Positions 18,406 to 48,320 of a stretch of 64,000 nucleotides of DNA are shown here, piece by piece. Position numbers and translations under genes: made by a program. This stretch comes from Ehretia macrophylla (lineage: Eukaryota; Streptophyta; Magnoliopsida; Boraginales; Ehretiaceae): positions 27,931,853 to 27,995,852 of the forward strand of contig CM075773.1 of assembly GCA_037974665.1 (NCBI GenBank), given 5' to 3'. The first letter of the stretch is position 1, and every line of letters starts with the position of its first letter. The notes beneath the pieces are model-generated. The model saw only the letters and a list, made by a program, of their open reading frames with translations, searched no databases and was not told the DNA's origin.

Positions 18406-18416
18406 CCTTAGAAGAA

Positions 18417-23180: not shown

Positions 23181-23189
23181 ACGAAATTC

Positions 23190-26871: not shown

Positions 26872-27438
26872 GCACCTGTCATGTTGAGGGCTCAAATCCT
26901 TTATGTGTTGACGGTTCAGAGTCCCAGCCTAGAGAGATGGCCCTTTCAAAAGGCCCAATAGGCTTAATGATATCCCATCCGCTTCAACAACGGAACATCT
27001 TGGCAAGACGTGATATCGACACATTGTAGGGCCTTCTAATTTCCCGCGAGTTAGGTTGTCGTCCTTTTAACAGCTCACGACGTACGATCCGTGACGGAAA
27101 AAACAGAGCAAAAGAAGAAAATTGGCATGAAACTGATGAAAACATACAATTTTGGGCTCCAAAAACTGGCACAGCCGAGCAGACTTGTTGCCCCCATTGT
27201 AGAGCTCTCAGAGAGCTTTTCAACAGTATGCTGTTCACTGCGTAACTCCTTACGAATCAAAAGTTATAGGCACCGGACCGACGTAGACCTAGCTACAAGC
27301 CCCACGCCCTCGGTTTGCAGGCCCAGCCTCTACGTGAAGCGAAGTTTTCTTACCCAAGGTGCCATGGGATTCGGTAATAGAAATATGTAGGATAAAGCAT
27401 CTTGGCAACCCTAACTGGGGCAAAAATAATTGAAAATG

Positions 27439-27557
27439 GGGGTGCAACACGAGGACTTCCCAAGGGATCACCCATCCTAGTACTACTGTCGCCCAAGAAC
27501 ACTTAACTTCGGAATTCTGATGCGATCTGGTGCACTAGTGCTGGTACGATCGTACCC
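27439..27557 (-). rRNA. 5S rRNA copy 19
   Basis: About twelve differences. Box A is changed (AAGAACACTTAAC) and the upstream part reads GGAATTCTGATGCG. Its duplication partner is copy 36. Confidence 0.9.
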
Positions 27558-28116
27558 ATCATGTTTAGGGCACAAATCCTTTATGTGTTGAAGGTTCATA
27601 GTCCCAACCCAGAGAGATGGCCCATTGAAAAGGCCCAATGGGCTTAACGATATCCCATCTACTTCAACAACGCAGCATCCCCACAAGATGTGATATCGAC
27701 GCGTTGTAGAGCCCTGTAATGTTTAGCGAGTTAGGTTATCATCCTTTTAACATCGCACGACGTACAATACGGGTCAGAAAAATAGTATAAAAGAAGAAAA
27801 GTGACCCGAAACTGATGAAAACGTTCAATTTTGGGCTCCAAAAAGGGAACAACTAAGCAAGCGGGCTACCCCGTTCGTAGAGCTCTCTGAGAGCTTTCCA
27901 ACAGTATGCTGTGCATGGCGTAACTCCTTACAGCTCAAAAGTTATGGGCACCGAAAAGACGGAGACCAGGTCACAAATCCCATGCCCTCGGTTTGCCGGC
28001 CCAGCCTCTTCGTGAAGCGAATTTGTCTTGTCCACGGTGTCGTGGGATTCGGTAATAGAAATGGGATGGATAAAGCATCTTGGCAAGCCTAGACGGGGCA
28101 AAAAAAATTGAAAAGG

Positions 28117-28235
28117 GGGCTGCAACACGAGGACTTCCCAGGGTGTCACCCATCCTAGTACTACTCTCGCCCAAGCACGCTTAACTTCAGAGTTCTGATG
28201 GGATCCGGTGCATTAGTGCTGGTATGTTTGCACCC
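28117..28235 (-). rRNA. 5S rRNA copy 20
   Basis: About six differences. Both internal boxes are nearly intact. The start region has GGTATGTTTGCACCC, a variant nearly repeated in its partner, copy 37 (GGTATGTTTTCACCC). Confidence 0.92.
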
Positions 28236-28795
28236 GTCATATTGAGTGCACAAATCCTTTATGTGTTGACGGTTGACCGTCCCAGCCCAGAGAGATTGCC
28301 CATTCAAAAGGCCCAATGGGCTTAATGACAACCCATCTGCTTCAACAACACAGCATCCTCGCAAGACGTGATACGACATGTTGTAGGGCCCTCTAATGTC
28401 CTGCGAGTTTGGTTGTCGTCCTTTTAACAGCTCACGACGTACGATCCAGGACGAAAAAACTAAGCAAAAGAAGAAAAGTGGTCCGAAAATGATGAAAATG
28501 ATCGATTTTGGGATACCAAAACAGGCACAGCCTAGCAGGCTTGCTGCCCCCGTCGTAGAGCTCTTTATGAGCTTTCCAACGGTATGTTGTGCGCCGCGTA
28601 ACTCCTTTCGGATCAAAAGGTATGGGCACGGGAGTAACGGAGACCTGGTCACAAGCCCCACGCCCTCGGCTTGTGGGCCCAGCTTCTACGTGAAGCGAAG
28701 TTGTCTAGCCCAAGGTACCGTGCGATTCGGTAATAGAAATGTGCTGGATAAAGCATCTTGGCAACCCTAACCAGGGCAACAAAAAATTGAAAAAA

Positions 28796-28914
28796 GAGGT
28801 GCAACACGAGGACTTCCCACGGGGTCACCCATCCTAGTACTACTATCGCCCAAGCACGCTTAACTTCGGAGTACTGATGGGATCCGGTGCATTAGTGATG
28901 GTATGATCGCACCC
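28796..28914 (-). rRNA. 5S rRNA copy 21
   Basis: About five differences, mostly outside boxes A and C (CTATCGCCC at the box A edge, AGTACTGATGG, GTGATGG). Among the better-preserved copies. Partner: copy 38. Confidence 0.93.
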
Positions 28915-29395
28915 GTCATGTTGTGGGCACAAATCCTTTATGTGTTGACGGTTCAGGGTCCCAACCCAGAGAAATGGCACATTCAAAAGGCACAATGGGC
29001 TTAACGAAAACCCATCCACTTCAACAGCGCCGCATCCCTGCAAGACGTGATATCAACGTGTTGTAGGGCCCTCTACTGTCCCTCGAGTTAGGTTGTCGTA
29101 CTTTTAACTGTTCACGACGTACGATCCGGGACTGAAAAATAGTGCAAAAGAAGAAAAGGGTCCCAAAACTAATGAAAATGTTCGATTTTGGGCTCCAAAA
29201 ACGGGCGCAGTTGAAAAGGCATGCTGCCCTTGTCGTAGAGCTCTCAGAGAGCTTTCCAACGGTATGATGTGCGCCGCGTAACTCCTCTACATGAAGCGAA
29301 GTTGTCTTGCCCAAGGTGCCGTCAGATTCGGTAATAGAAATGTGGTGGATAAAGCATCTTGGCAACCTTAACTGAGGCAAAAAAATTTGAAAAAG

Positions 29396-29514
29396 GGGGT
29401 GCAACACGAGGACTTCCCAGGGGTTCACCCATCCTAGTACTTCTCTCGCTCAAGCACGCTTAACTTCAGAGTTTTCATTGGATCCAGTGCATTGGTGCTG
29501 GTATGATCGCACCC
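29396..29514 (-). rRNA. 5S rRNA copy 22
   Basis: About nine differences, with box A reading CGCTCAAGC. The spacer on its 3' side (plus-strand left) lacks ~79 bp around 29286, between AACTCC and CTACATGAAG. The same deletion is found next to copy 39. Confidence 0.92.
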
Positions 29515-30060
29515 ATCATGTTGACGGCACAAATCCTTTATGTGTTGATGGTTCACAGTCCCAGCCCAGAGAGATGGCCAAATGGGCTTAAGACAACCCA
29601 TCTTCTTCAACAATGTAGCATTCTCGCAAGACGTGATATCAACACGTTGGAGGGCCCTCTAATGTCCCGCGAGTTAGTTTGTCGTCCTTTTAACAGCTCA
29701 CGACGTACGATTCGGGACGGAACAACAGAGCAAAAGAAGAAAAGTGGCCCAAAACTAATGAAAACATACAATTTTGGGCTCTAAAGACAGGCGCAGTCGA
29801 GGAGGCTTGCTGCCCCCGACGTAGAGCTCTCAGAAAGCTTTCCAACGATATGCTATGCGCCTCGTAACGCCTTACGGATAAAAAGTTATGGGCACCGGAG
29901 CGACGAAGACCTGGTTATAAGCCCCACGATCTAGGTTTGCGGGCCAAACCTCTACGTGAAGTAAAATTGTCTTGCCCAAGGTACCGTGGGATTCTGCAGT
30001 AGAAATGTGGTGGATAAAGCATATTGGCAACCCTAACCGGGGCAAAAAAAAATGAAAATG

Positions 30061-30178
30061 TGGGTACAAACGAGGACTTCCCAAGTGGTCACCCATCCTA
30101 GTACTACTCTCGCCCAAGCACGCTTAACTTCGGAGTTCTGATGGGATCCGGAGCATTAGTGCTGGTATGATCATACCC
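30061..30178 (-). rRNA. 5S rRNA copy 23
   Basis: Boxes A and C are intact. The 3' end is short (TACAAACGAGG for TGCAACACGAGG) and the 5' end reads TCATACCC. Its right half matches the right half of hybrid copy 39. Confidence 0.9.
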
Positions 30179-30737
30179 GTCATTTTGAGGGCACAAATCC
30201 CTTATGTGTTTACGATTCACAGTCCCAACCCAGAGAGATGTCCCATTCAAAAGGCCCAATGGGTTTAACGATATCCCATCTTCTTCAACAACGTAGCATC
30301 CTCGCAAGACGTGATATTGACGCGTTGTAGGGCCCTCTAATGCCCCGCGAGTTAGGTTGTCACCTCTTTAACAGCTCACAACGTACGATCCGAGACGAAA
30401 AAATTGAGCAAAAGAAGAAAAATGGACTAAGACTGATGAAAATGTACGATTTTGGGCTCTAAAAACAGGCGCAGCCAAGCAATCTTTCTCCCCCGTTGTA
30501 GAACTCTCGGAGAGCTTTCCAACGGTATACTGTGCGCCGCGTAACTCCTTGCGGATCAAAAGTTATGGGCACCGGAGAGATGGGGACCTCTTCACAAGCC
30601 CCACGTCCTCGGTTTACTGGCCCAGCCTCTATGTGAATCGAAGTTGTCTTGCCCAAGGAGCCGTGGGATTCGGTAATAGAAATGTGGTGGATAAAGCATC
30701 TTGGCAACCCCAACCCGGGCAAAAAATATTGAAAAGG

Positions 30738-30856
30738 GCGGTGCAACAAGAGGACTTTCCAGGGGGTCACCCATCCTAGCACTATACTGGCCCAAGCACG
30801 GTTAACTTCGTAGTTCTGATGGGATCCGATGCATTAGTGGTGAAATGATCGCACAC
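30738..30856 (-). rRNA. 5S rRNA copy 24
   Basis: About thirteen differences, including box A (TGGCCCAAGCACGGTTAAC) and the box C side (CCTAGCACTATACTGG). Partner copy 40 shares AACAAG, ACTTTCC and CCTAGCA. Confidence 0.88.
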
Positions 30857-31026
30857 ATCATGTTGAGGACACAAATCCTCTATGTGTTGACAATTCACAG
30901 TCCCAGCCTAGAAAGATGGCCCATTCAAAAGGCCCAATGGGCTTAATGACAACCCATCCACTTCAACAATGCAGCATCCTCGTAAGACGAGATATCGAAG
31001 TATTGTAGGGCCCTGTAATGTCTGGT

Positions 31027-31146
31027 GAGTTAGGTTCTCATCCTTTTTGCGGCTCACGAGGTTCGATCCGGGACTTAAAAACAGCGCAAAAAGCAGAAAA
31101 GTTGCCCGAAATTGATAAAAATATTCAATTTTGGGATCCAAAAATG
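31027..31146. repeat. Gene-conversion tract, copy 1 (120 bp)
   Basis: Identical over 120 bp to 31705-31824 in the neighbouring unit, although the flanking spacer differs. The tract has variants seen nowhere else in the array, such as CCTTTTTGCGGCTCACGAGG and GCGCAAAAAGCAG. Confidence 0.88.
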
Positions 31147-31417
31147 CGTGCAGTGATGCAGGCTTGCTGCCCCTGTCGTAGAGCTCTCGGAGAGCTTTCC
31201 AACGGTAAGCTATGCGCTGCGTAACTCCTAACGGATCAAAAGTTATGGGGACCGGAGCGATGGAGACATGGTCACAAGCCCCACGCCCTCGGTTTGCGTG
31301 CCCAGCCTCTACGTGAAACAAAGTCGTCATATCCAAGGTGCCGTGGGATTCGGTAATAGAAATGTGGTGGATAAATCATCTTGGCAAACCTTACCGAGGC
31401 CAAAAAAATTGAAAAGG

Positions 31418-31535
31418 GGGGTACAACACCAGGACATCCCCGGGGGCACCCATCCTAGAACTACTCTCACCCAAGCACGCTTTACTTCGGAGTTCTGATG
31501 GGCTCCGGAGCATTAGTGCTGGTATGATTGCACCC
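31418..31535 (-). rRNA. 5S rRNA copy 25
   Basis: One base short, with about ten differences (ACACCAGGACATCCCC, CACCCAAGCACGCTTTAC, GGGCTCCGGAGC). The spacer on its left carries the first copy of the 120-bp conversion tract. Confidence 0.9.
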
Positions 31536-31704
31536 ATCATGTTGAGGGCATAAATCCCTTATGTGTTGATGGTTCACAGTCCCATCCCAAAGAGATGGCC
31601 CATTTAAAAGGCCTAATGGGCTTAACGTAACCCATCCGCCTCAGCAACTCACCATCCTCGCAAGACATGATATCGACGCTTTGTAAGACCCTCTAATGCC
31701 CCGC

Positions 31705-31824
31705 GAGTTAGGTTCTCATCCTTTTTGCGGCTCACGAGGTTCGATCCGGGACTTAAAAACAGCGCAAAAAGCAGAAAAGTTGCCCGAAATTGATAAAAAT
31801 ATTCAATTTTGGGATCCAAAAATG
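31705..31824. repeat. Gene-conversion tract, copy 2 (120 bp)
   Basis: Second copy of the identical tract, 678 bp from the first, which is one unit length. The units matching these in the second duplication copy (41757 and 42421 onward) lack the variant, so it arose after the duplication. Confidence 0.88.
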
Positions 31825-32094
31825 TGCGAAGCGATGAGGCTTGCTACCCCCGACGTAGAGCTCTCAAAAAGCTTTCCAACAGTATGCTGTGCACCGCGTA
31901 ACTCCTTACGGATAAAAAGTTATGGGCACCGGAGCGACGGAGACCTGGTCACGAGCCCCACGATCTAGGTTTGCGGTCCCAGCCTCTACGTGAAACGAAG
32001 TTGTCTTGCCCAAGGTGCCATGGGATTCGGTAAAAAAAATGTGGTGGATAAAGCATCTTGGCAACCCCAACCGAGGCAAAAAAAATTGAAAACG

Positions 32095-32213
32095 TGGGTG
32101 CAACACGAGGACTTCCTTGGTGGTCACCCATCCTAGTACTACACTTGCCCAAGCACGGTTAACATCGGAGTTCTGATGGGATCCTGTGCATTAGTGCTGA
32201 TATGATCGCACCC
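32095..32213 (-). rRNA. 5S rRNA copy 26
   Basis: About nine differences (ACACTTGCCC, CACGGTTAACATCGG). Its spacer has the CGATCTAGG variant also found beside copies 23 and 42. Partner: copy 42. Confidence 0.9.
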
Positions 32214-32772
32214 GTCATGTTGAGAGCACAAATCCTTTATATGTTGTCGGTTCACAGTCCCAGCCTAGAGAGATGGCCCATTCAAAAGGCATAATGGGCT
32301 TAACGCAGCCCATCCGCTTCAACAGCGCAGCATCCTCGCAAGACGTGATATCGACGCGTTGTAGGGCCCTCTAATGCCCTGCGAGTTAGGTTGTCATCTT
32401 TTTAACAGCTCACGACGTACAATCCGAGACGGAAAAATAGTGCAAAAGAAGAAAAGTGGCCTGAAACCGATGAAAACGTACAATTTTGAGCTCTAAAAAC
32501 AGGTGCAGCCAAGCAGGATTGCTCCCCCGTCGTAGAGCTCTCGGAGAACTTTCCAATGGTATGCTGTGCGCCGCGTAACTCCTTACAAATCAAAAGTTAT
32601 GGGCACCAGAGTGACGGAGACCTGGTCACAAGTGCCACGCTCTCGGTTCGCAGGCCCAGCCTCTACGTGAAGCGAAGTTGTCTTGCCCAAGGTGCCGTGG
32701 GATTCGGTAATAGAAATGTGGTGGATAAAGTATCTTGGCAACCCTAACCAGGGCAAACAATATTTAAAAGGG

Positions 32773-32891
32773 GGGGTGCAACACGAGGACTTCCCAGGGG
32801 GTCACCCATCCTAGTACTACTCTCGCCCAAGCACGCTTAACTTCGGAATTCTGATGGGATCTAGTGCATTAGTTTTGGATTGATTGCACAC
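32773..32891 (-). rRNA. 5S rRNA copy 27
   Basis: The 3' two thirds match the majority exactly, including both boxes. The 5' end is degenerate (GATCTAGTGC, AGTTTTGGATTGATTGCACAC). This split pattern could reflect conversion of part of the gene. Partner: copy 43. Confidence 0.92.
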
Positions 32892-33451
32892 ATCATGTTG
32901 AGGGCACAAATCCTTTATGTGTTGACGGTTCACAGTCCCATCCTAGAGAGATGGCCTATTCAAAAGGCCCAATGTACTTAACGACAACCCATCCGCTTCA
33001 ACAATGCAGCATCCTCATAAGACAAGATATCGAAGTGTTGTAAGGCCCTGTAATGTCTCGCGAGTTAGGTTGTCATCCTTTTTAACAACTCACGACGTAC
33101 AATCGGGGACAGAAAAATAGAGCAAAAGAAGAAAAGTTGCCCGAAATTGATAAAACGTTCGATTTTTCGATCCAAAAATGGGTACAGTGATGCAGGCTTA
33201 CTGCCCCTATCGTAGAGCTCTCGGAGAGCTTTCCAATGGTTTGTTGTGCGCTGCGTAACTCTTTACGGATCAAAAGTTATGGGCACCGGAGCGATGGAGA
33301 CCTGGTCACATGCCCCACGCCCTCGGTTTGCGGGCCTAGCCTCTACGTGTAGCGTAGTTGTCTTGCCCAAGGTGCCGTGGGATTTGGTAATAGAAATGTG
33401 GTGGATAAAGCATCTTGGCAACCTTAACCGGGGCAAAAAAAATTAAATAGG

Positions 33452-33570
33452 GTGGTGCAAGACGAGGACTTCCCAGGTGGTCACCCATCCTAGTACTACT
33501 CTCGCCCAAGCACGCTTAACTTCGGAGTTCTGATGGGATTTGGTGCATTAGTGCTGGTATGATTGCACCC
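33452..33570 (-). rRNA. 5S rRNA copy 28
   Basis: About six differences, with box A intact and box C core intact (CAGGTGGTCACCCATCC). Its left spacer has the GATATCGAAGTG variant shared with copy 44, the j/k hybrid. Confidence 0.93.
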
Positions 33571-34111
33571 GTCATGTTGAGGGCCCAAATCCTTTATGTG
33601 GTGACGGTTCACAGTCCCAGTCCAGAGAGATAGCCCATTCAAAAGGCCCAATGGGCTTAACGACAACCCATCCGCTTGAACAACGTAGCATCCTCGCAAG
33701 GCGCGATATCAATGCATTGTAGAGCCCTCTAATATCCCACGAGTTAGGTTGTCCTCCATTGAACAGCTCACGACATACGATCCGGGACAGAAAATGAGCA
33801 AAAGGAGAAAAGTGGCCTGAAACTAATGAAAACATTCGATTTTGGGCTGCAAAAATGGGCGCAGCCGAGAAGGCTTGTTGCCTCCGTCGTAGAACTCTCG
33901 GAGAGCTTACAACGGTATGATGTGCGCCGCGTAACTCCTTACGTATCAAAAGTTATGGGTACCGCAGCGGCGGAGTCTTGGTCCTATGCCCCACGCACTC
34001 AGTTTGTAGGCCCAGCCTCTACTTGAAGCGAAATTGCATTGCCCAATGTGCCATGGGATTCGGTATTAGAATTGTTTTGGATAAAGTATCTTGGCAACCC
34101 TAACCGGGGCC

Positions 34112-34125
34112 AAAAATATTAAAAA
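34112..34125 (-). terminator. Pol III terminator T-run of 5S copy 29 (example)
   Basis: Read on the minus strand, TTTTT starts two bases past the gene's 3' end, followed by a second run of five. Nearly every unit has a similar T-rich stretch here (plus-strand GCAAAAAAAATTGAAAAGG), with run lengths of 4 to 9. Confidence 0.75.
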
Positions 34126-34127
34126 GT

Positions 34128-34246
34128 GGGGTGCAACAAGAGGACTTCCCAAGGGGTCACCCATCCTAGTACTACTCTCGCCCAAGCACGCTTAACTTCG
34201 GAGTTCTGATGGGATCCGGTGCATTAGTGCTGGTATGATTGCACAC
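34128..34246 (-). rRNA. 5S rRNA copy 29, best preserved of the array
   Basis: About four differences: AACAAG near the 3' end, CCCAAGG, GATTG and a GCACAC end. Boxes A and C match the majority exactly. It also has a good upstream element and T-run terminator, so it is among the best candidates in the window for an active 5S gene. There is no one-to-one partner: the matching region in the second duplication copy is fused into copy 44. Confidence 0.94.
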
Positions 34247-34326
34247 GTCATGTTGAGGGCACAAATCCTTTATGTGTTGACGGTTCACATTCCCAGCCTA
34301 GAGAGATGGCCCATTCAAAAGGCCCA
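34247..34326 (-). promoter_or_regulatory. Upstream region of 5S copy 29 (array example)
   Basis: C at -1, a GCCC block at about -11 to -14, and ATAAAGG at 34268-34274 (-22 to -28) fit the plant 5S upstream pattern of C at -1, GC near -12 and a TATA-like element near -28. Two TGGGCC motifs (minus sense), at 34308-34313 and 34321-34326, resemble site II elements of plant translation-related genes. Whether they act here is inference. Confidence 0.65.
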
Positions 34327-34799
34327 ATAAGCTTAACGATAACCCATCTGCTTCAACAATACAGCATCCTCGTAAGACGTGATATCGACGTGTTTTAGGG
34401 CCCTGTAATGTCCAGCGAGTTAGGTTGTCATCCTTTTAACAGCTCAAGATGTACGATCTGGGACGGAAAAACAGAGCAAAAGAAGAAAAGTGGTCCGAAA
34501 CTAATGAAAATGTTCAATTTTGGGATCCAAAAATGGGCACAGAGGTCCAGGCTTGCTGCCCCTGTCGTAGAGCTCTTGGTGAGCTTTCCAACGGCATGCT
34601 GTGCGCCGCGTAACTCCTCACGGATCAAAAGTTATGGGTATCAGAGACCTGGTCACAAGCACCACGGCCTCGGTTTACGGGCCCAGCCTCTACGTGAAGA
34701 GAAGTTGTCTTGCCCAAGGTGTCGTGGGATTCGGTAATAGAAATGTGGTGGATAAAGCATCTTGGCAACCCTAACCGGGGAAAAAAAATTGAAAAAGGG

Positions 34800-34918
34800 G
34801 GGGTGCAACACGAGGACTTCCCAAGGGGTCACCTATCCTAGTACTACTCTCGCCCAAACACGCTTAACTTTGGAGTTCTGATGAGATCCGGTGCATTAGA
34901 GCTGGTATGATCGCCCCA
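34800..34918 (-). rRNA. 5S rRNA copy 30
   Basis: About eight differences, with box A reading CGCCCAAACACG and box C CACCTATCC. The 5' end reads TCGCCCCA. Partner copy 45 shares the GTGTTTTAGGG/ATGTTATAAGG spacer variant next to CCTTGTAATG. Confidence 0.92.
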
Positions 34919-35477
34919 GTCATGTCGTGGGCACAAATCCTTTATGTGTTGATGGTTCACAGTCCCAGCCCAAAGAGATGGGCCATTCAAAAGGCCCAAT
35001 GGGCTTAACGACAACCCATCTGCTTTAAAAACGCAGCATCCTCACAAGACGTGATATCGACGTGTTATAGGGCCCTCTAATGTCCCGCGAGTAAGGTTGT
35101 TGTCCTTTTAACAGCTCACGACGTATGATCCGGGACGGAAAAACATAGCAAAAGAAAAAAAGTGGCACAAAACTGATGAAAACGTTTGATTTTTGGCTCT
35201 AAAAATAGGTGTAAGCGAACAGGCTAGCTGCCCCAGTCGTAGAGCTCTCACTGAGCTTTCCAACGGTATGATGTGCGTCGCGTAACTCCTTACGGATCAA
35301 AAGTTATGGGCACAGGAGAGACGGATACTTGGTCACAAGCCCCACGCCCTCGGTTTACGAGCCCAACCTGTACGTGAAGAAACTTTGTCTTACCCAAGGT
35401 TCCGTGGGATTCGATAATAGAAATTTGTTGGATATTGTATCTTGGTAACCCTAACCAGGGCAAAAAAAATTGAAAAG

Positions 35478-35596
35478 GGGGTGCAACACGAGGACTTCCC
35501 AGGGGGTCACCCAACCTAGTACTACTCTCGCCCAAGCATGCTTAACTTCGGAGTTCTGGTGGGACCCGGTGCATTAGTGCTAGTATGATTGCACCC
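35478..35596 (-). rRNA. 5S rRNA copy 31
   Basis: About six differences. CACCCAACC in box C and GGGACCCGG near the start are both repeated in its partner, copy 46, as is the spacer variant CTGTACGTGAAGAAAC. Confidence 0.93.
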
Positions 35597-36156
35597 ATCA
35601 CATTGATGGCACCAATCCCTTATTTGTTGACGGTTCACAGTCCCAGCCCAGAGAGATAACCCATTCAAAAGGCCCAATGGGCTTAACAACAACTCATCTG
35701 CTTCAACAGCATAGCATACTTGCAAGATGTGATATCGACGCATTGTAGGGCCCTCTAATGTCCAGCGACTTAGGTTGTCGTCTTTTTAAGAACTCAAGAC
35801 GAATTATTTGGGACGAAAAAATAGCGTAAAAGCAGAAAAGTTGCCCGAAACTGATGATAATGTTCAATTTTGGGCTCCAAAAACTAGTGCAACAAAGTTG
35901 GCTTGCTGCCCCCGTTGTAGAGCTCTCGAAGAGCTTTCCAACGGTATGCGATGCGCCACGTAAATCCTTACGGATCAAAAGTTATGGGCACCGGAGCGAC
36001 GGAGACCTGGTCACAAGCCCCACGCCCTCGGTTTGCGGGCCCAGCCTCTACGTGAAGCGAAGTTGTCTTGCCCAAGGTACCGTGGGATTCGGTAGTATAA
36101 ATATGGTGGATAAAGTATCTTGGCAACCCTAACCGGGGCAAATAAAATTGAAAATG

Positions 36157-36275
36157 AGGGTGCAACACGAGGACTTCCCAGGGAGTCACCTATCCTAGTA
36201 CCACCCTCGTCCAAGCACTCTTAACTTCGGAGTTCTGATGGGATCCAGTGCATTAGTGCTGGTATGATAGCACCC
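36157..36275 (-). rRNA. 5S rRNA copy 32
   Basis: About nine differences, some in box A (CGTCCAAGCACTC) and box C (CACCTATCC, ACCACC). Partner: copy 47. Confidence 0.9.
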
Positions 36276-36833
36276 ATCATGTTGAGGACGTAAATCCTTT
36301 ATGTGTTGACGGTACACTGTCCGAGCCCAGAAAGATAGCCCATTCAAAAGGCCCAATGGGCTTAACGGTAACCCATCCGCTTCAACAACGCATCATCCTC
36401 GCAAGACGTGATATTGACGCATTTTAGGGCCCTCTAATGTCCCGCAAGTAAGGTTGTCGTCCTTTTAACTGCTCTCGACGTACAATCCGGGATTAAAAAA
36501 AAGCGCAAAAGAAGCAAAGTGCCCAGAAACTGATAAAAACGTTCCATTTTGGGCTCCAAAAACAGGCGCAGCCGAGTAGGCTGGTTACCCTTGTCGTAGA
36601 GCTCTCAGAGAGCTTTCCAACAGTATGCTGTGCGCCGTGTAACTCCTTACGGATCAAAAGTTATGGGCACCGAAGCGACGGAGACCTGGTTCTAAGCCCC
36701 ACGCCCTTGGTTTGCGGGCCCAGCCTCTACGTGAAGCGAAGTTGTCTTGCCCAAGGTGGAGTGGGATTCGGTAATAGAAATGTGATGGATAAAGCATCTC
36801 GGCAACCCTAAATAGGGAAAAAAATTGAAAAGG

Positions 36834-36952
36834 GGGGTGCAACATGAGGACTTCCCAGAGGGTCACCAATCCTAGTACTACTCTCGCCCAAGCACACTTA
36901 ACTTAGGAGTTCTGATGGAATCCAGTGCATTAGTGTTGGTATGATCATACCT
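36834..36952 (-). rRNA. 5S rRNA copy 33
   Basis: About ten differences. CAGAGGGTCACCAATCC near the 3' side is shared exactly with partner copy 48. Confidence 0.92.
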
Positions 36953-37512
36953 GTCATGTCGAGGGCGCAAATCCCTTATGTGTTTACCGTTCATAGTCCC
37001 ACCCCAAAGAGATGGCCCATTCAAAAGGCCCAATGGTCTTAACGACAACCCATCAGCTTCAACAACGTAGCTTACTCACAAGACGTGATATCGACGCATT
37101 GTAGGTCCCTATAATGTCCAGGGAGTTAGGTTGTCTTCCTTTCAACAGTTCACGATGTACGATCCGGGATTGAAAAACAGAGCAAAAGGAGGAAAGAGGC
37201 CCAAAACTGATGAAAACGTTCTATTTTGGGCTCCGAAAAGATGTGCAGCCGAGCAACCTTGCTACCCCCGTTGTAGAGCTCTCGGAGATCTTTCCAACGG
37301 TATGCTGTGAGCCGCGTAACACCTCACGGAACAAAAGTTATGGGCATCAGTGCAACAGAGACCTTGTCACAAGCCCCACGCCCTCGGTTTGTGGGCCCAA
37401 CCTCTACGTGAAGCGAAGTTGTCTTGCCCAAGGTGCCGTGGGATTCGATAATGGAAATATGGTGGATAAAGTATCTTGGAAACCCTAACCGAGGCAAAAA
37501 AAATTGAAATGG

Positions 37513-38181: not shown

Positions 38182-38300
38182 GGGGTACAACACAAGGACT
38201 TCCTAGAGGGTCCCCAATCCCAGTACTACTCTCGCCCAAGCACGCTTAGCTTCAGAGTTCTAATGGTACCCGGTAAATTAGTGCTGGTATGATCGCACGT
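38182..38300 (-). rRNA. 5S rRNA copy 35
   Basis: Among the most decayed, with about fifteen differences (GGTCCCCAATCCC in box C, CTTAGCTTCAG, CTAATGGTACCCGG). Partner copy 50 shares CTAGAGGGT and CTTAGCTTC. Confidence 0.88.
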
Positions 38301-38860
38301 GTCATATAGAGGGCACAAATCCTTTATGTGTTGACGGTTCACAGTCCCAGCCTAGAGTGATGGCCTATTCAAAAGGCCAATTGGGCTTAACGACAACCGA
38401 TCCGCTTCAACAACACAGCATCCTCGTAAGATGTGATATCGACGCATTGTAGTGCCCTCTAATGTACCGCGAGTTAGGTTGTCGTCCTTTTAACAGCTCA
38501 CGATGTACGATCCGTGATGGAAAAACTGAGCAAAAAAAGAAAATTGGCATGAAACTGATGAAAACGTACAATTTTGGGCTCCGAAAACTGGCACAGCTAA
38601 GAAGACTTGCCGCCCCCGTTGTAGAGCGCTCGAAGGGCTTTCCAACGGTATGCTGTGCGCCGCGTTACTCTTTACGGATCAAAAGTTATGGGCACCGGAG
38701 CGATGGAGACCTGGTCAAAAGCCCTATGCCCTCGGTTTGCAGGCCTAGCCTCTACGTGAAGCGAAGTTGTCTTGCCCAAGGTGTTGTGGGATTCGGTAAT
38801 AGAAATATGGTGGATAAAGCATCTTGGCAAGCCTAACTGGGGCAAAAATAATTGAAAAGT

Positions 38861-38979
38861 GGGGTGCAACATGAGGACTTCCTAGGGGGTCACCTATCTC
38901 AATACTACTCTCGTCCAAGCACGCTTAACTTCGGAGTTCTGATGGGATCTGGTACACTAGTGCTGGTATGATCGCACCC
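38861..38979 (-). rRNA. 5S rRNA copy 36
   Basis: About ten differences, with box A CGTCCAAGC and box C CACCTATCTCAATAC. First gene of the second duplication copy. Its upstream flank shares CATGTTTAGGGC with copy 19. Confidence 0.9.
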
Positions 38980-39538
38980 GTCATGTTTAGGGCACAAATC
39001 TATTATGTGTGGACGGTTCACAGTCCCAGCTCAGAGAGATGGCCTATTGAAAAGGCCCAATGGGATTAACGACATCCCATCTGCTTCAACAACGTAGCAT
39101 CCTCGCAAGATGTGATATCGACGCATTGTAGGGCCCTCAACTGTTCTGTGAGATAGGTTGTCGTCCTTTTAACAGCGCACGACGTACGATCCGGACGAAA
39201 AAATAGAGCAAAAGAAGAAAAGTGACCTGAAACTGATGAAAACGTTCAATTCTGGGCTCCAAAAATGGGCGCAACTAAGCAAGCTGGCTACCACCATCGT
39301 AGAGCTCTCAGAGAGGTTTCCAACGGTATGCTTTACACCGCGTAACTCCTTACGGATCAAAAGTTATGGCCACTGGAGCAACAGAGACCTGGTCACAAAT
39401 CCCACGCCCTAGGTTTGCGGGCCCAGCCTCTACGTGAAGCGAAGTTGTCTTGTCCAAGGTGCCATGGGATTTGGTATTAGAAATGTGGTGGATAAAGTAT
39501 CCAGGCAACCCTAACCAGGGTAAGAAAAATTGAAAAGG

Positions 39539-39657
39539 GGGGTGCAACACGAGGACTTCCGATGGGGTCACCCATCCTAGTACTACTCTCATCCAAGCAT
39601 GCTTAACTTCGGAGTTCTGATGGGATCCGGTGCATTAGTGCTGGTATGTTTTCACCC
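39539..39657 (-). rRNA. 5S rRNA copy 37
   Basis: About eight differences. Box C is intact and box A reads CATCCAAGCATGC. Its upstream spacer shares CATATTGAG and GTTGAC with copy 20. Confidence 0.92.
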
Positions 39658-40217
39658 ATCATATTGAGCGCACAAATCCTTTATGTGTTGACAGTTGACA
39701 GTCCCACCTCAGAGGGATGGCCCATTCAAAATTCCCAATGGGCTTAATGACAGCCCATCCACTTCAACAACGTAGCATTCTCGCAAGACGTAATATCAAC
39801 GCGTTGTAGGGCCTTCTAATGTCCCGCGAGTTAGGTTGTCATCCTTTTAACTGCTCACAACATACGATCCGGGATGGAAAAACAAAGCAAAAGAAGAAAA
39901 GTTGCTTGAAACTGATGAAAATGATCGATTTTGGGATATGAAAATAGGCGCAGCCTAGCAAGCTTGCTACCCCCGTCGTAGAGCTCTTAGAGAGCTTTCC
40001 AACGGTATGTTGTGCGCTGCATAACACCTTTCGGATCAAAAGTTATAGGCACTAGAGCGACAGAGACCTATTAACAAGCCCCACGCCCTCGATTTATGGG
40101 CCCAGCCTCCACGTGAAGCGAAGTTGTCTTGCCCAAGGTGCCATGGGATTCGGTAATAGAAATGTGCTGGATAAAGCATCTTGGCAAGCCAAACCAGGGC
40201 AAAAAAAATTGAAAAAT

Positions 40218-40336
40218 GAGGTATAACACGAGGATTTCCCAGGGGGTCACCCATCCTGGTACTACTCTCGTCCAAACACGCTTAACTTCCGAGTACTGAA
40301 GGGATCCGGTGCATTAGTGCTGGTATGATCGTACCT
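40218..40336 (-). rRNA. 5S rRNA copy 38
   Basis: About eleven differences, including CGTCCAAACACG in box A. The upstream spacer shares GGTTCAGGGT and CATCCCTGCAAG with copy 21. Confidence 0.9.
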
Positions 40337-40789
40337 GTCATGTTGAGGGCACCAATCCTTTATGTGTTGACGGTTCAGGGTCTCAACCCAGAGAATTGGC
40401 CCATTCAAAAGGCCCAATGGGCTTAACGACAACCCATCCACTTCGACAACGCAGCATCCCTGCAAGACGTGATATCAACGCATTGTAGGGCCCTTTAATG
40501 TCCCGCGAGTTAGGTTGTCATACTTTTAACAGCTCACGACGTACGAGCCGGGACCGATATCAACTGATGAAAATGTTCAATTTTGGGCTACAAAAACAGG
40601 CGCAGCCATGGATGCTTCATGCCCTTGTTGTAGAGCTCTCAGAGAGCTTTCCAACGGTATGTTGTGCGCCGCGTAACTCTTCTACGTGAAGTGAAGTTGT
40701 CTTGCCCAAGGTACCGTGGATTCGGTAATAGAAATGTGGTGGATAAAGCATCTTGGCAACCCTAACCGCGACAAAAAAAATTGAAAATG

Positions 40790-40908
40790 TGGGTACAACA
40801 CGAGGACTTCCCAGGTGGTCACCCATCCTAGAACTACACTCGCCCAAGCATGGTTAACTTCGGAGTTCTAATGGGATTTGGTGCATTAGTGTGGGTATGA
40901 TCACAGCC
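40790..40908 (-). rRNA. 5S rRNA copy 39, hybrid unit
   Basis: About thirteen differences. The spacer to its left carries the ~79-bp deletion of the copy 22 unit and a second loss of ~29 bp near 40555, giving a 572-bp interval, the shortest in the array. The sequence around the gene (AAAATGTGGGTACA, CAGGTGGTCACCC) instead matches copy 23. This is read as a crossover product of those two ancestor units. Confidence 0.9.
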
Positions 40909-41468
40909 GTCATGCTGAGGGCACAAATCCTTTATGTGTTGACGGTTCACAGTCCCAGCCCAGAGAGGTGGCCCATTCAAAATGCCTAACGGGCTTAACG
41001 ACAACACATCCGCTACAACAATACAGCATCCTTGCAAGACGTGATATCGACGAGTTATAGGACCCTCTAGTGTCCTGCGAGTTAGGTTGTCGTCTTTTTA
41101 ACAGCTCACGACATATGATTCGAGACGGAAAAATAGCGCAAAATAAGAAAAGTATCCCAAAACTGATGAAAACGTTCAATTTTAGGCTCTAAAAATAGGC
41201 GCAGCCCAGCCGGATAGCTCCCCCATTGTAGAGCTCTTGGAGATCTTTCCAACGGTATGCGGTGCGCCGCGTAACTCCTTACGAATCAAAAGTTATGGGC
41301 ACCGGAGCAACGGACACCTAGTCACATACCCCACGCCCTCGGTTTGCTGGCCCAGCCTCTATGTGAAGCAAAATTGTCTTGCCCAAGGTGCCATGGGATT
41401 CGGTAATAGAAATGTGGAGGATAAAGTATCTTGGCAACCTTAACCCGGGCAAAAAATATTGAAAAGGG

Positions 41469-41587
41469 GGGGTGCAACAAGTGGACTTTCCAGGGGGTCA
41501 CCCATCCTAGCATTATTCTCGCCCAAGCATGCTTAACTTCGGAGTTCTGATGGGATCCGGTGCATTAGTGCTGGAATGATCGCACAC
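41469..41587 (-). rRNA. 5S rRNA copy 40
   Basis: About nine differences. CCTAGCATTATTC lies next to box C and GCATGC in box A. Partner of copy 24, sharing CAAAAAATATTG just downstream of the gene. Confidence 0.92.
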
Positions 41588-42146
41588 ATCATGTTGAGGG
41601 CACAAAGCCTCTATGTGTTGACGGTTCACTGTCCCAGCCTAGAGAGATGGCCCATTCAAAAGGCCCAATGGGCTTAACGACAACCCATCCACTTCAACAA
41701 TGCAGCATTCTCGTAAGACGAGATATCGAAGTATTATTGATCTGTGTAATGTCTCACGAGTTAGGTTGTTATCCTTTTAACAGCTCACGATGTACGATCC
41801 AGGACGAAAAAACAAAGCAAAAGAAGAAAAGTTACCCGAAATTAATAAAAACGTTCGATTTTGGGATCCAAAAATGCGCGTAGCGATGCAGGCTTACTGC
41901 CCATGTCGTAGAGCTCTTTGAGAGCTTTCCAATAGTATGTTGTGCGCTGCGTAACTCCTTACGGATGAAAAGTTATGGGCACCGGAGCGATGGAGACATG
42001 GTCACAAGCCCTACGCCCTCGGTTTGCGAGCCCAACCTCTACATGAAGCGAAGTTTTCTTGCCAAGGAGTCGTAGGATTCGGTAACAGAAATGTGGTGGA
42101 TAAAGCATCTTGAGAACCCTAACCGGGGCAAAAAAAATTGAAAAAG

Positions 42147-42265
42147 GGGGTGCAACACGAGGACTTCCCAGGGGGTCACCTATCCTAGTACTACTCTCAC
42201 CCAAGCACACTTAACTTCGGACTTTTGATTGGATCCGGTGCATTGGTGCTGGTATGATCGCACGC
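42147..42265 (-). rRNA. 5S rRNA copy 41
   Basis: About eight differences (CACCTATCC, CACCCAAGCACAC, GGACTTTTGATTGG, CATTGGTGC). Partner of copy 25; both left spacers contain GAGATATCGAAGTATT. Confidence 0.92.
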
Positions 42266-42812
42266 ATCATGTTGAGGGAAAAAATCCTTTATGTGTTGAC
42301 GGTTCACAGTCCCAGCCCAGAGAGATTGCCTAATAGGCTTAACGACAACCCATCCGCTTCAACAACGCAGCATCCTCACAAGACATGATATCAATGCATT
42401 GTAGGGCCCTCTAATGTCCCTCAAGTTAGGTTGTCGACCTTTTAACAGCTCACGACGTACGATCCGGGATGGAACAACAGAGCAAAAGAAGAAAAGTGGC
42501 TCAAAACTAATGAAAACGTACAATTTTGGGCTCTGAATACAAGCGCAGCCAAGGAGGCTTGATGCCCATGATGTAGAGCTCTCGGAAAGCTTTCCAACGG
42601 TATGTTGTGCGCCGTGTAACTCCTTACGGATAAAACGTTATGGGCATCGGAACGACGGAGACCTGGTTACAAGCCCCACGATCTAGGTTTGCGGGCCCAG
42701 CCTCTATGTGAAGCGAAGTTGTCTTGCCCAAGGTGCCATGGGATTTGGTAATAGAAATGTGGTGGATAAAGCATCTTGGCTACCCTAACCGGGGCAACAA
42801 AATTTGAAAACG

Positions 42813-42931
42813 TGGGTGCAACACGAGGACTTCCCAGGTGGTCACCCATCCTTGTACTACACTCGCCCAAGCATAGTTAACTTTGGAGTTCTGAAGGGAT
42901 CTGGTGCATTAGTACTGATATGATCGCACCC
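42813..42931 (-). rRNA. 5S rRNA copy 42
   Basis: About eleven differences, with box A damaged (GCATAGTTAACTTTGG). The CGATCTAGG spacer variant ties it to copy 26. Confidence 0.9.
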
Positions 42932-43485
42932 GTCTTGTTGAGGGCAAAAATCATTTGTGTTGACGGTTCACAGTCGCAGCCCAGAGAGATGGCCCATTCA
43001 AAGGCCTAATGGGCTTAACGGCAACCCATCCGCTTCAACAATGCAGTATCCTCACAAGACATGATATCGACGTGTTGTAGGGCCCTCTAATGCCCCGCGA
43101 GTTAGGTTGTCATCTTTTTAACAGCTCACGATGTACGATCCGAGATGGAAAAATAGAGCAAAAGAAGAAAAGTGGCCTGAAACTGATGAAAATGTACAAT
43201 TTTGGGGTCTAAAAATAGGCAAAGACAAGCAGGCTTGCTTCCCCGTCGTAGAGCTCTCGGAAAGCTTTCCAACGGTATGTTGTGCGCCACATAACTCCTT
43301 ACAAATCAAATGTTATGGGCACCGAAGCGACGGAGACTGGGTCACAAGCCCCACGCCCTCGGTTTACGGTCCCGGCCACTACGTGAAGCGAAGTTGTGTT
43401 AGCCAAGGAGCCGTGGGATTCAGTAACTGAAAGGTGGTGGATAAACCATCTTGGCAAGCCTAATCGGGGAAAAAATTTGAAAAAG

Positions 43486-43601
43486 GGGGTGCAACACGAC
43501 TTCCCAAGGGGTCACCGATCCTAGTACTACTCTCGCCCAAGCACGCTTAACTTTGGAGTTCTGATGGGATCCGGTGCATTAGTGCTGATACGTTTGCACC
43601 A
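43486..43601 (-). rRNA. 5S rRNA copy 43
   Basis: Three bases are missing near the 3' end (ACACGACTTCCC). Box A is intact apart from its edge, and box C reads CACCGATCC. The start region is altered (GATACGTTTGCACCA). Partner of copy 27. Confidence 0.9.
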
Positions 43602-44161
43602 GTCATGTTGAGGGCACAAATCCCTTATGTGTTGACGGTTCACAGTCCTAGCCCAGAGAGATAGCCAATTCAAAAGGCCTAATGGGCTTAACGACAACCC
43701 ATCCGCTTCAACAATACAGCATCCTCGTAAAATGAGAAATCAAAGTGTTGTAGGGCCCTGTAATGTCTCGCGAGTTAGGTTGTCATCCTTTTAACAACTC
43801 ACGACGTACGATCCGGGACGGAAAAACAGAGCAAAAGTAGAAAAGTGGCCCGAAACTGATGAAAACGTTCAATTTTGGAATCCAAAAACCGGTGCAGCCG
43901 ACAAGTCTTGCTGCCCCAGTCATAGAGCTCTGGGAGAGCTTTTCAACGGTACGTTGTGCGCCACGTGACTCCATACGGAACAAAAGTTATGGGCACCGGA
44001 GCGACGGAGTACTGGTCCCAAGCCCCACGCCCTCGGTTTGCAGGCCCAGCCTCTACTTGAAGCGAAATTGTCTTGCCCAAGGTGCCATGGGATTCAGTAA
44101 TAGAAATGTGGATGATAAAGTATCTTGGCAACCCTAACCGAGGCAAAAAAAATTAAAAAGG

Positions 44162-44280
44162 GGGGTACAACACGAGGACTTACCATGGGGTCACCCATCC
44201 TAGTTTTACTCTCGCCGAAGCACGCTTAACTTCGGAGTTCTGATAGGATCCGGTGCATTAGTGCTAGTATGATCGCACCC
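44162..44280 (-). rRNA. 5S rRNA copy 44, hybrid unit
   Basis: About eight differences, with box A CGCCGAAGC. The left part of the unit matches that of copy 28 (CAAAGTGTTGTAGGGCCC near 43742). The right part matches the copy 29 unit (CTCTACTTGAAGCGAAATTG). The offset to the first duplication copy drops by 667 bp here, as expected if one unit was lost by crossover. Confidence 0.9.
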
Positions 44281-44842
44281 GTCATGTTGAGCGCACAAAA
44301 CCTTTATGTGTTGACGGTTCACCGTCCCAGCCTAGAGAGATGGCCCATTCAAAAGTCCCAATAGGCTTAACGACAACCCATTCGCTTCAACAATACAGCA
44401 TCCTCGTAAGACGTTATATCGACATGTTATAAGGCCTTGTAATGTCCCGCGAGTTAGGTTGTCATCCTTTTAACAGCTCAATACGTACGATCCGGGACCG
44501 AAAAACAGAGCAAAAGAAGAAAAGTGGCCCAAAACTGATGAAAATGTTCGATTTTGGGCTCAAAAAATGGGCGCAGTGGAGTAGGCTTGCTGCCCCTATC
44601 GTAGAGCTCTTGGAGAGCTTTCCAACGGTATGCTGTGCGCCGTATAACTCCTTACGTATCAAAAGTTATGGGCACCAGAGCGACGGAGACCTTGTCACAA
44701 GCCCTACGCCCTCGGTTGGCGGGCCCAGCCTCTACGTGAAGCGAAGTTGTCTTGCCCAAGGTGCCGTGGGATTCAGTAAAAGAAATGTGGTGGATAAAGC
44801 ATCTTGGCAACCCTAACCGGGGCAAAAAAAAAATTGAAAAGG

Positions 44843-44961
44843 GGGGTGCAACACGAGGACTTCCCAAGGGGTCACCCGTCCTACTACTACTCTCGCCCAA
44901 GCACGCTTAACTTCCGAGTTCTGATGGGATCCGGTGCATTAGTGCTGGTATGATCACACCC
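44843..44961 (-). rRNA. 5S rRNA copy 45
   Basis: About five differences, with box A intact and one or two changes in box C (CACCCGTCCTACTAC). A relatively good copy. Partner of copy 30. Confidence 0.93.
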
Positions 44962-45518
44962 GTCATGTTGAGGGCACAAATCCTTTATGTGTTGACGGTT
45001 CACTGTCCCAGCGTAGAGAGATGGCCCATTCAAAAGGCCCAATGGGATTAACGACAACCCATCCTCTTCAACAACGCAGCATCCTCACAAGACCTGATAT
45101 TGATGAATTGTAGGGCCCTCTAATGTCCCGCGAGTTAGGTTGTCGTCCTTTTAACAACTCACGACGTATAATTCGGGATAGAAAAACAGAGCAAAAGAAG
45201 AAAAGTGTCCCGAAACTGATAAAAATGTTCGATTTTTGTCTACGAAAAAGGCGCAGCGGAGCAGGCTTGCTGCCCCCGTCGTAGAGCTCTCAGAGAGCTT
45301 TCCAACGGTATGATGTGCACCGTGTAGCTCGTTACGGATCAAAAGTTATGGGCACCAGAGCGACAGACACCTGGTCACAAGCCCCACGCCCTTGGTTTAC
45401 GGGCCCAGCCTGTACGTGAAGAAACGTTGTCTTGCCCAAGGTACCGTGGGATTAGGTAATGAAATGTGTTGGATAATGTATCTTGGCAACCCTAACCAGG
45501 TGAAAAAAATTGAAAAGG

Positions 45519-45637
45519 GGGGTACAACACGAGGACTTCCCAGGGGGTCACCCAACCTAGTACTACTCTCGCCCAAACACTCTTAACTTCGAAGTTCTGA
45601 TGGGACCCGGTGCTTTAGTGCTGGTATGATCGCGCCT
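45519..45637 (-). rRNA. 5S rRNA copy 46
   Basis: About nine differences, with box A CGCCCAAACACTC. It shares CACCCAACC and GGGACCCGG with copy 31. Confidence 0.92.
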
Positions 45638-46196
45638 GTCATGTTGAGGGCACCAATCCCTTATGTGTTGACGGTTCACAGTCCCAGCCCAGAGAGATGG
45701 CCCATTCAAAAGGCCCAATGGGCTTAATGACAACCCATCCGCTTCAACAACGTAGCATCCTTGCAAGACGTGATATCAAAGCATTGTAGGGCCCTCTAAT
45801 GTCCAGCGAGTGAAGTTGTCGTCCTTTTAAGAACTCACGACGTACGATCCGGGATGAAAAAATAGAGCACAAGAAGTAAACTGGACCGAAACTGATGAAA
45901 ACGTAGGATTTTGACCTCCAAAAATACGTGCAGCAAAGCCGGCTTGCTACCCTCGTTGCAGAGCTCTCGGAGAGCTTTCCAACGGCATGCTGAGCGCCGT
46001 ATAACTCCTTACGGATCAAAAGTTATGGGCATCGGAGCGACGGAGACTTGGTCACAAGCCCACGCCCTCGGTTTGCGGGCTCAGCCTCTACGTGAAGCGA
46101 AGTTGTCTTACCCAAGGTGCCGTGGGATTCGATAATAGAAATATGGTGGATAAAGTATCCTGGCAACCCTAACCGGGGCAAAAAAAATTGAAAAGG

Positions 46197-46315
46197 GGGG
46201 TGCAACAAGAGGAATTCCCTGGGGGTCACCCATTCTAGTACTACTCTCGCCCAAGCACGCTTAACTTCAAAGTTCAACTGGAATCCGGTGCATTAGTGCT
46301 GGTATGATCGCACCC
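46197..46315 (-). rRNA. 5S rRNA copy 47
   Basis: About ten differences. Box A is intact, but the segment just upstream in the gene is scrambled (TTCAAAGTTCAACTGGAATCC). Partner of copy 32. Confidence 0.92.
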
Positions 46316-46874
46316 GTCATGTTGAGGGCACAAATCCTTTATGTGTTGACAATTCACAGTCCCAGCCCAGAAAGATGGCATATTCAAAACGCCCAATGAG
46401 CTTAACGACCGCCCATCCGCGTCAACAATGTAACATCCTCGCAAGACGTGATATTGATGCATTGTAAGGCCATCTAATGTCCAAAAAGTTAGGTTGTCGT
46501 CCTTTTCACTGCTCACGACGTACGATCCGACACGGAAAAATAGCGCAAAAGAAGAAAAGTGGCCTGAAACTGATGAAAACATTCGATTTTAGGCTCTAAA
46601 AATAGGCACAGCCGAGCAGGCTTGCTGCCCCATCGTAGAGCTCTCGGAGAGCTTTCCAACAGTATGTTGTGCGCCATGTATCTCCTTACGGATCAAAAGT
46701 TATGGGCACCGGAGCGACGGAGACCTAGTCACAAGCCCCATGACCTCGGTTTGCAGGCCCAACCTCTACGTGAAGTGAAGTTGTCTTGCCTAAGGTTCAT
46801 TGGGATTCGGTAATAGAAATGTGATGGATAAAGCATCTCGGCAACCCTAAACGGGGCAAAAAAAATTAAAAAGG

Positions 46875-46993
46875 GGGGTGCAACACGAGGACTTCCCAGA
46901 GGGTCACCAATCCTAGTACTACTCTCGCCCAAGCACGCTTAACTTCGGAGTTCTAATGGGATCCGGTGCATTAGTGCTGGTATGATCGCACCT
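46875..46993 (-). rRNA. 5S rRNA copy 48
   Basis: About four differences, with box A exact and one change in box C (CACCAATCC). One of the best-preserved copies. Partner of copy 33. Confidence 0.94.
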
Positions 46994-47531
46994 GTCATGT
47001 TGAGGGCACCAATCTCTTATGTGTTGATGGTTCGCAGTCCCAGCCCAAAGAGATGGCCCATTCAAAAGGCCCAATGGGCTTAACGACAACCCATCCGCTT
47101 TAACAACGTAGCATACTTGCAAGACGTGATATCGATGCAATGTAGGGCCCTCTAAAGTCTAGCGATTTAGGTTGTCGTCCTTTTAAGAACTCACGACGTA
47201 CGATCCGTGCTGAAAAAATAGAGCAAAAGAAGTAAAGTGGACTGAAACTGATGAAAACGTTCGATTTTGGCCTCTAAAAAAGGCACAGCAAAGCAGGCTT
47301 GCTGCCCCCGTTCCAGAGCTCTCGGAGAGCTTTCCAACGGTATGCTGTGCACCGCGTACCTCCTTATAGATCGAAAGTTATGGACACTGGAGCCAGGGAG
47401 ACCTCCGTTTGCGGGCCCAGCCTCTACGTGAAGTGAAGCTATCTTGCCCAAGGTGCCATGGGATTCGATAATAGAAATATGGTGGATAAAGTATCTTGGC
47501 AACCTAACCGGGGCAAAAAAAATTGAAAAGG

Positions 47532-47651
47532 GGGGTGCAACAAAAGGACTTCCCTGGGGGTCACCCATTCTAGTGCTACTCTCGCCCAAGCACGCTTGAC
47601 TTCAGAGTTTTGCTGGGATCAGGTGCATTAAAACTTGGTATGATCGCACCC
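47532..47651 (-). rRNA. 5S rRNA copy 49
   Basis: About twelve differences and one extra base (ATTAAAACTTGGTATG for ATTAGTGCTGGTATG). Box A has CTTGACTTCAG. Partner of copy 34. Confidence 0.9.
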
Positions 47652-48201
47652 GTCATGTTGAGGGCACAAATCCTTTATGTGTTGACGATTTACAGTCCCA
47701 AACCAGGGAGATGGCCCATTCAAAAGGCCCAATGGGCTTAACGGTAACCCATCCACTTCAACAATGCAGCATCCTCGCAAGACATGATATTGACGCAATG
47801 TAGGGCCCTCTAATGTCCCGCGAGTAAGGTTTTCGTCCTTTTAACTGCTCTCGATGTACGATCCGGGATGAAAAAACAGACCAAAAGAGGAAAAGTAGCA
47901 TGAAACTGATGAAAACATTCAATTTTAGGCTTCAAAAATAGGCGCAGCCGAGCAGGCGTGCTGCCCCTGTTGTAGAGCTCTCAAAAAGCTTTCCAACAGT
48001 ATGCTGTGCGCCTTACAGATCAAAAGTTATGGGCACCGGAGCGACGCAGACCTAGTCACAAGCACCATGCCCTTGGTTTGCGGTCCCAGCCACCACATGA
48101 AGTGAAGTTGTCTTGCCCAAGGTGTTGTGGGATTCGGTAATAGAAATGTGGTGGATAAAACATCTCGGCAACCCTCAACGGGGCAAAAAAAATTGAAAAG
48201 G

Positions 48202-48320
48202 GGGGTGCAACACGAGGACATCCTAGAGGGTCGCCAATCCTAGTTCTACTCTCGCTCAAGCACGCTTAGCTTCGAAGTTCTGATGGGATCCAGTGCATTG
48301 GTGCTGGTATGATCGCACCC
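48202..48320 (-). rRNA. 5S rRNA copy 50
   Basis: About twelve differences, including GGTCGCCAATCC in box C and CGCTCAAGCACGCTTAGC in box A. The last gene of the duplication. Partner of copy 35. Confidence 0.9.

Follow-up and report, generated by a model that had tools for sequence, protein, structure and literature searches.

A colinear block duplication recorded in a decayed 5S rDNA array of Ehretia macrophylla

In the Smith model of unequal crossing over in ribosomal DNA (rDNA) and satellite arrays, an exchange out of register copies several complete units in tandem and makes a chimera of one unit. Here we describe a 5S rDNA array in Ehretia macrophylla (assembly GCA_037974665.1, contig CM075773.1, positions 27,931,853 to 27,995,852; this whole stretch of 64 kilobases (kb) is referred to as the window) in which about 17 consecutive units form a block that is directly adjoined by its own colinear copy, of about 15 units. 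As in the Smith model, a run of whole units has been duplicated and one unit is chimeric; unlike in Smith-model arrays, the event is frozen and later homogenisation is absent. The array shares with satellite higher-order repeats, for example alpha satellite, a better match one period away than to neighbours, but holds two copies only, about 12.5% diverged, and within the window the block has not been amplified repeatedly.

The closest study that we found among the matches listed concerns the 5S rDNA of pike (PMC5437419), whose available sections treat 5S blocks above the level of the unit and discuss C-to-T pseudogenisation; to the best knowledge of its authors, the higher-order organisation of 5S genes had not been examined before. 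The four groups set out in those sections are continuous, interrupted, inverted or dispersed blocks and, unlike the array here, include no colinear direct duplication of several units. The pike authors also describe no significant pseudogenisation there, whereas the Ehretia array is decayed. Incomplete concerted evolution and rDNA pseudogenes are covered by a review of rDNA variation (PMC10462631), and the array resembles such cases, as they appear in the accessible part of the review, in its lost homogenisation and its pseudogenes; the large plant example given there is the 45S rDNA of Cycas, whereas ours is a mapped 5S array. Among the matches listed, no title or abstract opening tells of a plant 5S array in which several units were duplicated colinearly.

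Rfam, at its gathering thresholds, identifies 51 5S ribosomal RNA genes in the window (RF00001, 52.8–105.7 bits, n = 51). Every one of them is on the minus strand; they start at 214 and none lies past 49,000. Their sense-strand consensus resembles an ordinary plant 5S gene.

214..49297, minus strand: decayed 5S rDNA array of 51 units, delimited by RF00001 matches and unit spacing.

Units are spaced by about 679 base pairs (bp), except for a few shorter or longer ones and at two inserts that break the array at about 8.46–11.29 kb and 14.69–26.87 kb. The left edge of the window cuts the array, and its right end lies inside unit 51, at about 49,297, where sequence resembling a long terminal repeat (LTR) starts.

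An earlier note on this DNA had proposed that, within these 51 units, a block of 17 is adjoined by a colinear copy of 15, with units 19–35 set against 36–50. Both the pairing of units and shuffles of unit order bear out the two blocks; the register does not stand, as it lies one unit earlier, with units 18–34 set against 35–49.

27044..38250, minus strand: block copy 1, comprising part of unit 18, all of units 19–34 and part of unit 35, placed by a copying model.
38250..48273, minus strand: block copy 2, comprising part of unit 35, all of units 36–49 and part of unit 50, placed by the copying model and unit-order shuffles.

Paired units are about 87.0% identical, 3 points more than neighbours. 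As had been claimed, the 13 pairs named in the earlier note, which were fixed before scoring and not picked from the scored data, are more alike (mean identity 86.84%) than the 32 neighbour pairs (84.04%) or all 528 pairs of units 18–50 (84.03%). The gene-start offsets reported for them were also correct: 11,422 for 19-36, 10,713–10,731 for 24-40 to 27-43 and 10,019–10,043 for 30-45 to 35-50. Identity ranking alone is misleading, as the little-changed units 8, 15, 29 and 44 seem closest to many others; an additive correction was used instead, as was a pair score, a likelihood that weights shared variants by their rarity. The largest value in the controls for this score (30 column shuffles, 50 of the 51 units, insertion columns excluded) was 5.0, a level that 20 of the 1275 pairs exceed. 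Ten of these are block pairs, scoring from 7.2 to 30.6: 24-40, 34-49, 21-38, 20-37, 19-36, 30-45, 26-42, 31-46, 29-44 and 18-35. Eight of the 13 named pairs are among them (19-36, 20-37, 21-38, 24-40, 26-42, 30-45, 31-46 and 34-49), together with 29-44 (8.0) and 18-35 (7.2), which the note had not listed. By the same score, nine of the 16 pairs in the chain are mutual-best partners. Deletions with identical ends are common to units 21 and 38 (79 bp) and to units 22 and 41 (13 bp).

The order of the pairs, too, is far from chance. In the copying model, units 35–50 are copied from sources 18–34 and compared with the same units in shuffled order; the observed colinear score of 173.8 was reached in 0 of 400 shuffles (mean 102.5, standard deviation 8.0, maximum 135.4), and reversing the unit order gave 110.1. 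Two adjoining blocks thus pair colinearly beyond chance, as expected of a tandem duplication. The unit tree (IQ-TREE, 51 rows) agrees: the two-row clades 18-35, 19-36, 20-37, 21-38, 24-40, 30-45 and 34-49 are fully supported, and of its 14 two-row clades seven join units 15–17 apart and none joins adjacent units; a tree with neighbours as closest relatives, which the earlier note had named as speaking against a block duplication, is thus not what we see. Self-BLAST, in place of the self dot plot that had been suggested, traced the pattern less well. The blocks are not cleanly visible in it, the within-array matches among the best 60 of 302 are all 82–85% identical, and the longest match among those 60 follows the wrong register beyond unit 21.

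Several observations weigh against the block duplication as just described. Ten pairs that are not block pairs also score above 5.0 (22-41, 24-25, 46-48, 2-4, 27-40, 4-7, 26-39, 2-7, 47-49 and 24-27), and units 22–27 do not find their best partners in sequence (22-41, 26-39). The other five named pairs fall below the control maximum and have no unit-wide support: 25-41 (1.3), 32-47 (0.2), 27-43 (−0.7), 33-48 (−2.0) and 35-50 (−6.5). By plain identity, only three of the 16 chain pairs are mutual-best. The chain includes some pairs that were picked from the data on which they are scored, and the same holds for the column ranges used in the mosaic tests below. Masking deamination alleles leaves the tree, whose bootstrap was unsettled, with ten fully supported inner branches instead of 21; pairs 18-35 and 29-44 are not recovered in it, and 30-45 (support 88/93) and 34-49 (97/72) are weakened, while 19-36, 20-37, 21-38, 24-40 and 22-41 remain fully supported. 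Finally, unit 17 (13893–14571) clusters with units 19 and 36 whether deamination alleles are masked (95/85) or kept (97/80), which the block model does not explain.

Deamination is also the basis for reading the pairing as an artefact, produced by chance or by shared mutational hot spots at which C-to-T changes arose in parallel because the sequence context was the same. More than half of all changes from consensus are C-to-T or G-to-A (1682 of 3057). Under a harsher order test, which gives no credit for shared C-to-T but counts such sites as mismatches all the same, the observed score of 24.5 lies just below the shuffle maximum of 25.0 and is reached by at least one of 300 shuffles, a borderline result that would not convince alone. 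Colinearity nevertheless persists when deamination alleles (C-to-T, G-to-A) are scored as missing (234.3; none of 300 shuffles went above 202.0), and hot spots do not account for shared deletions of 79 bp and 13 bp with identical ends. These deletions together with the order test refute, in our view, the hot-spot explanation, to which we give practically no credence.

The junction between the two copies lies within a single unit.

38182..38860, minus strand: unit 35, chimeric junction whose front is like unit 50 and whose back is like unit 18, from column-range scores.

The copying model places copy 1 at an offset of 17 units from column 355 of unit 18 (27,044), and an offset of 15 extends to column 70 of unit 35; the left bound is set by shared variants, and the real edge may be displaced leftward by up to about 170 bp, or to the far side of the LTR element inserted in unit 18. 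The crossover in unit 35 lies between column 70 and about column 404. Over columns 0–75, only two of the 1275 pairs, itself included, score as high as 35-50, and over columns 355–770 only four, itself included, score as high as 35-18. Outside those columns both pairs are unremarkable (654 and 880 of 1275 score as high). The column ranges were selected after the pair and copying results had been viewed. As a whole-unit pair 35-50 was rejected, its match being limited to the first 75 or so columns. An exchange between unit 18 and the present unit 50 at the same within-unit point predicts exactly this mosaic, and a junction unit that is chimeric and like both outer ends, in ranges picked afterwards, is what a tandem duplication leaves.

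Excision of an extrachromosomal circle of about 17 units and its reinsertion by homologous recombination would likewise yield a tandem block with a single chimeric unit. Human cells are reported to contain circles of 5S repeats (PMC3225859), and a rotation could be suspected from the out-of-order pair 22-41. A rotation of the block is not seen, however, as units pair in the same sequence at either end, and the disorder at units 22–27 is better accounted for by the three-unit families described below than by a circle. We therefore regard the circle as an unlikely route and unequal exchange as the most likely physical event, as inferred from these blocks and their junction.

Two shifts in offset, predicted near 40.6 and 44 kb, were located by the copying model at about 40.7 and 43.9 kb.

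40218..40789, minus strand: unit 38, partner of unit 21, near whose end the offset leaves 17, from the common 79-bp deletion and the copying model.
43486..44161, minus strand: unit 43, mosaic unit at the 16-to-15 shift, from column-range scores.

At the first, the offset leaves 17 at about 40,732, drops to 13 for roughly one unit and reaches its new value of 16 at about 41,322; a stretch at offset 19 follows at 42,029–42,695, in units 40–41. The unit left without a partner here is 22, although it scores best with 41. Families with a three-unit period account for the offsets of 13 and 19, which equal 16 minus and plus 3. The second shift, from 16 to 15, falls at about 43,894 in unit 43, whose columns 126–484 match unit 27 (a score attained by 12 of the 1275 pairs, this one among them) and whose columns 484–770 match unit 28 (attained by four of the 1275, again with this one), a mosaic that a one-unit loss by exchange would leave.

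Duplications of two and three units are nested within the block.

29396..33451, minus strand: units 22–27, older three-unit duplication (22 with 25, 23 with 26, 24 with 27), from tree clades.
35478..38181, minus strand: units 31–34, older two-unit duplication (31 with 33, 32 with 34), from tree clades.
31024..31824, minus strand: recent exchange between neighbouring units 24 (31,024–31,127) and 25 (31,703–31,824), from copying-model tracts and identities.

The three-unit period appears in the clades of units 22, 25 and 41 (97/87), of 23, 26, 39 and 42 (97/94) and of 24, 27 and 40 (100/95), and the two-unit period in those of 31, 33, 46 and 48 (97/85) and of 32, 34, 47 and 49 (95/94). Judging by these clades, several block pairs really belong to families of three or four units; the short duplications appear to predate the block duplication, and later exchange seems to have blurred some of the pairs. 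Units 24 and 25 are alike at 120 of 122 positions over columns 356–480 and at 456 of 555 (about 82%) outside them; a local exchange between 46 and 48 is likely. Elsewhere in the array, units 2, 4 and 7, within 214–4962, form a strongly supported family (100/99) and units 1, 3 and 16 another (98/90), and both families appear to be further local duplications outside the block.

All of this is recorded in units whose mean identity to one another is 84.1%. C-to-T changes affect 17.7% of CG, 12.4% of CHG and 5.0% of CHH sites, an order consistent with that expected under plant cytosine methylation; the consensus behind this spectrum omits unit 13 and holds shortened units 18 and 51, and later alignments include all 51 units, with 13 and 18 joined. 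Genes diverge from the consensus at 7.7% of positions and spacers at 9.6%. Corrected for sequence context, the gene/spacer rate is 0.835, which lies within the spread among spacer stretches of 119 bp (0.79–1.36), and the least altered genes (units 8, 29 and 48) are still 4 of 119 positions off the array consensus; selection on the 5S genes therefore appears weak or gone. All three internal promoter boxes are at consensus in nine of the 51 units. Across the 51 units we thus found neither the conservation of gene over spacer nor the intact genes of a functional 5S array.

Neighbours are no closer to each other than random units, so homogenisation was already absent, and the unit tree is nearly a star (median end branch 0.09; inner branches all at most 0.033). 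The earlier claim that block duplication had outpaced homogenisation consequently survives in its first half only: the block duplication stands, the outpacing does not, given neighbours equal to random units, a near-star tree and genes that decay almost like spacer. The same evidence bears on ongoing unequal exchange, in which block duplication would outrun unit homogenisation and a true higher-order repeat would be forming. Pairs more alike than neighbours would fit such a process, which we nonetheless hold to be very improbable, as neighbours equal random units, the genes are hardly or not constrained and there is a single block pair, of which 11 paired units average 12.5% apart, so that no event of this size is seen during most of the decay of the array. 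No third copy was found in the window, where the pair 36-51, tried as a further copy, scores −10.7 and units 1–17 score 0.0 as colinear copies of either block. Higher-order repeat arrays have many copies of high identity; here there are two, about 87% identical, with no third in the window.

The order of events can be read from three distances, for which an element inserted in the array provides the youngest.

14692..26871, plus strand: LTR retrotransposon inserted in unit 18, from LTR comparison and domains.

Mean distance is 15.9% for the 1214 other pairs of units 1–50, 12.5% for 11 block pairs and 3.9% for the LTR pair, and transversions alone give much the same ratios (6.4%, 5.0% and 1.6%); these averages omit unit 51 and cover 11 of the 16 chain pairs, leaving out 18-35, 23-39, 25-41, 27-43 and 28-43. 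Hence homogenisation stopped first, the block duplication came next and the LTR element much later, and the block duplication would date to roughly a fifth of the elapsed divergence after homogenisation stopped. A once functional and homogeneous plant 5S array would have ceased homogenising and decayed unit by unit, with short local duplications of three and two units early in its decay. Sister chromatids or homologues lying 17 units out of register would then have undergone an unequal exchange that produced the tandem block and the chimeric unit 35. Later, copy 2 may have become two units shorter on balance, or copy 1 two units longer, with one of these changes due to exchange inside unit 43, and last would have come a few short conversion tracts (24/25, 46/48) and the LTR insertions. 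The data establish the decay spectrum, the pairing of the blocks, the mosaic junction, the shifts, the nested families and the relative timing of these events; which copy lost or gained units, and why homogenisation halted, we infer. Overall, we consider it very probable that halted homogenisation was followed by one early block duplication through unequal exchange, with later unit changes and insertions.

The element in unit 18 has 3.7-kb LTRs that differ by 3.88%, three open stretches, and reverse transcriptase, protease, RNase H and integrase domains, which we read as those of a Ty3/Gypsy-type element; by its LTR distance it appears younger than the block duplication. GCACCT flanks it on both sides, with one extra base at the left, and is likely a target-site duplication. 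The insertion adjoins the left flank of the block and may sit just inside or just outside it. At the right end of the array, 49297–52943 is LTR-like, with pieces 72–76% identical to the LTRs of the 14.7–26.9-kb element, and is possibly a solo LTR. The insert in unit 13 (8464–11285, about 2.8 kb) has ends resembling an LTR element. Beyond the array, 53183–62829 holds about 2.7 head-to-tail copies, about 98% identical, of a 3.58-kb sequence; since the first 140–160 bases of this repeat resemble the start of the unit 13 insert at 8,464 (74–77%), it may be a tandem of LTR-type units.

The mechanism is thus that of an ordinary tandem duplication, and what is unusual is how readable its record is: the duplication is still visible because the array stopped being homogenised. 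Later homogenisation usually wipes out the sizes and breakpoints of rDNA exchanges. Here, a duplication of about 17 units, its crossover unit, a one-unit exchange and older two- and three-unit duplications can be ordered against an LTR insertion, and the array thereby supplies a concrete example of how large exchanges can be while a 5S array decays. We raise, tentatively and as somewhat less probable than its opposite, the idea that dead 5S arrays are in general recombination fossils, in which single exchanges, crossover units and their time order stay readable through most of the decay. If true, this would allow the sizes of such events (2, 3 and about 17 units here) and their rates to be measured directly in plant rDNA.

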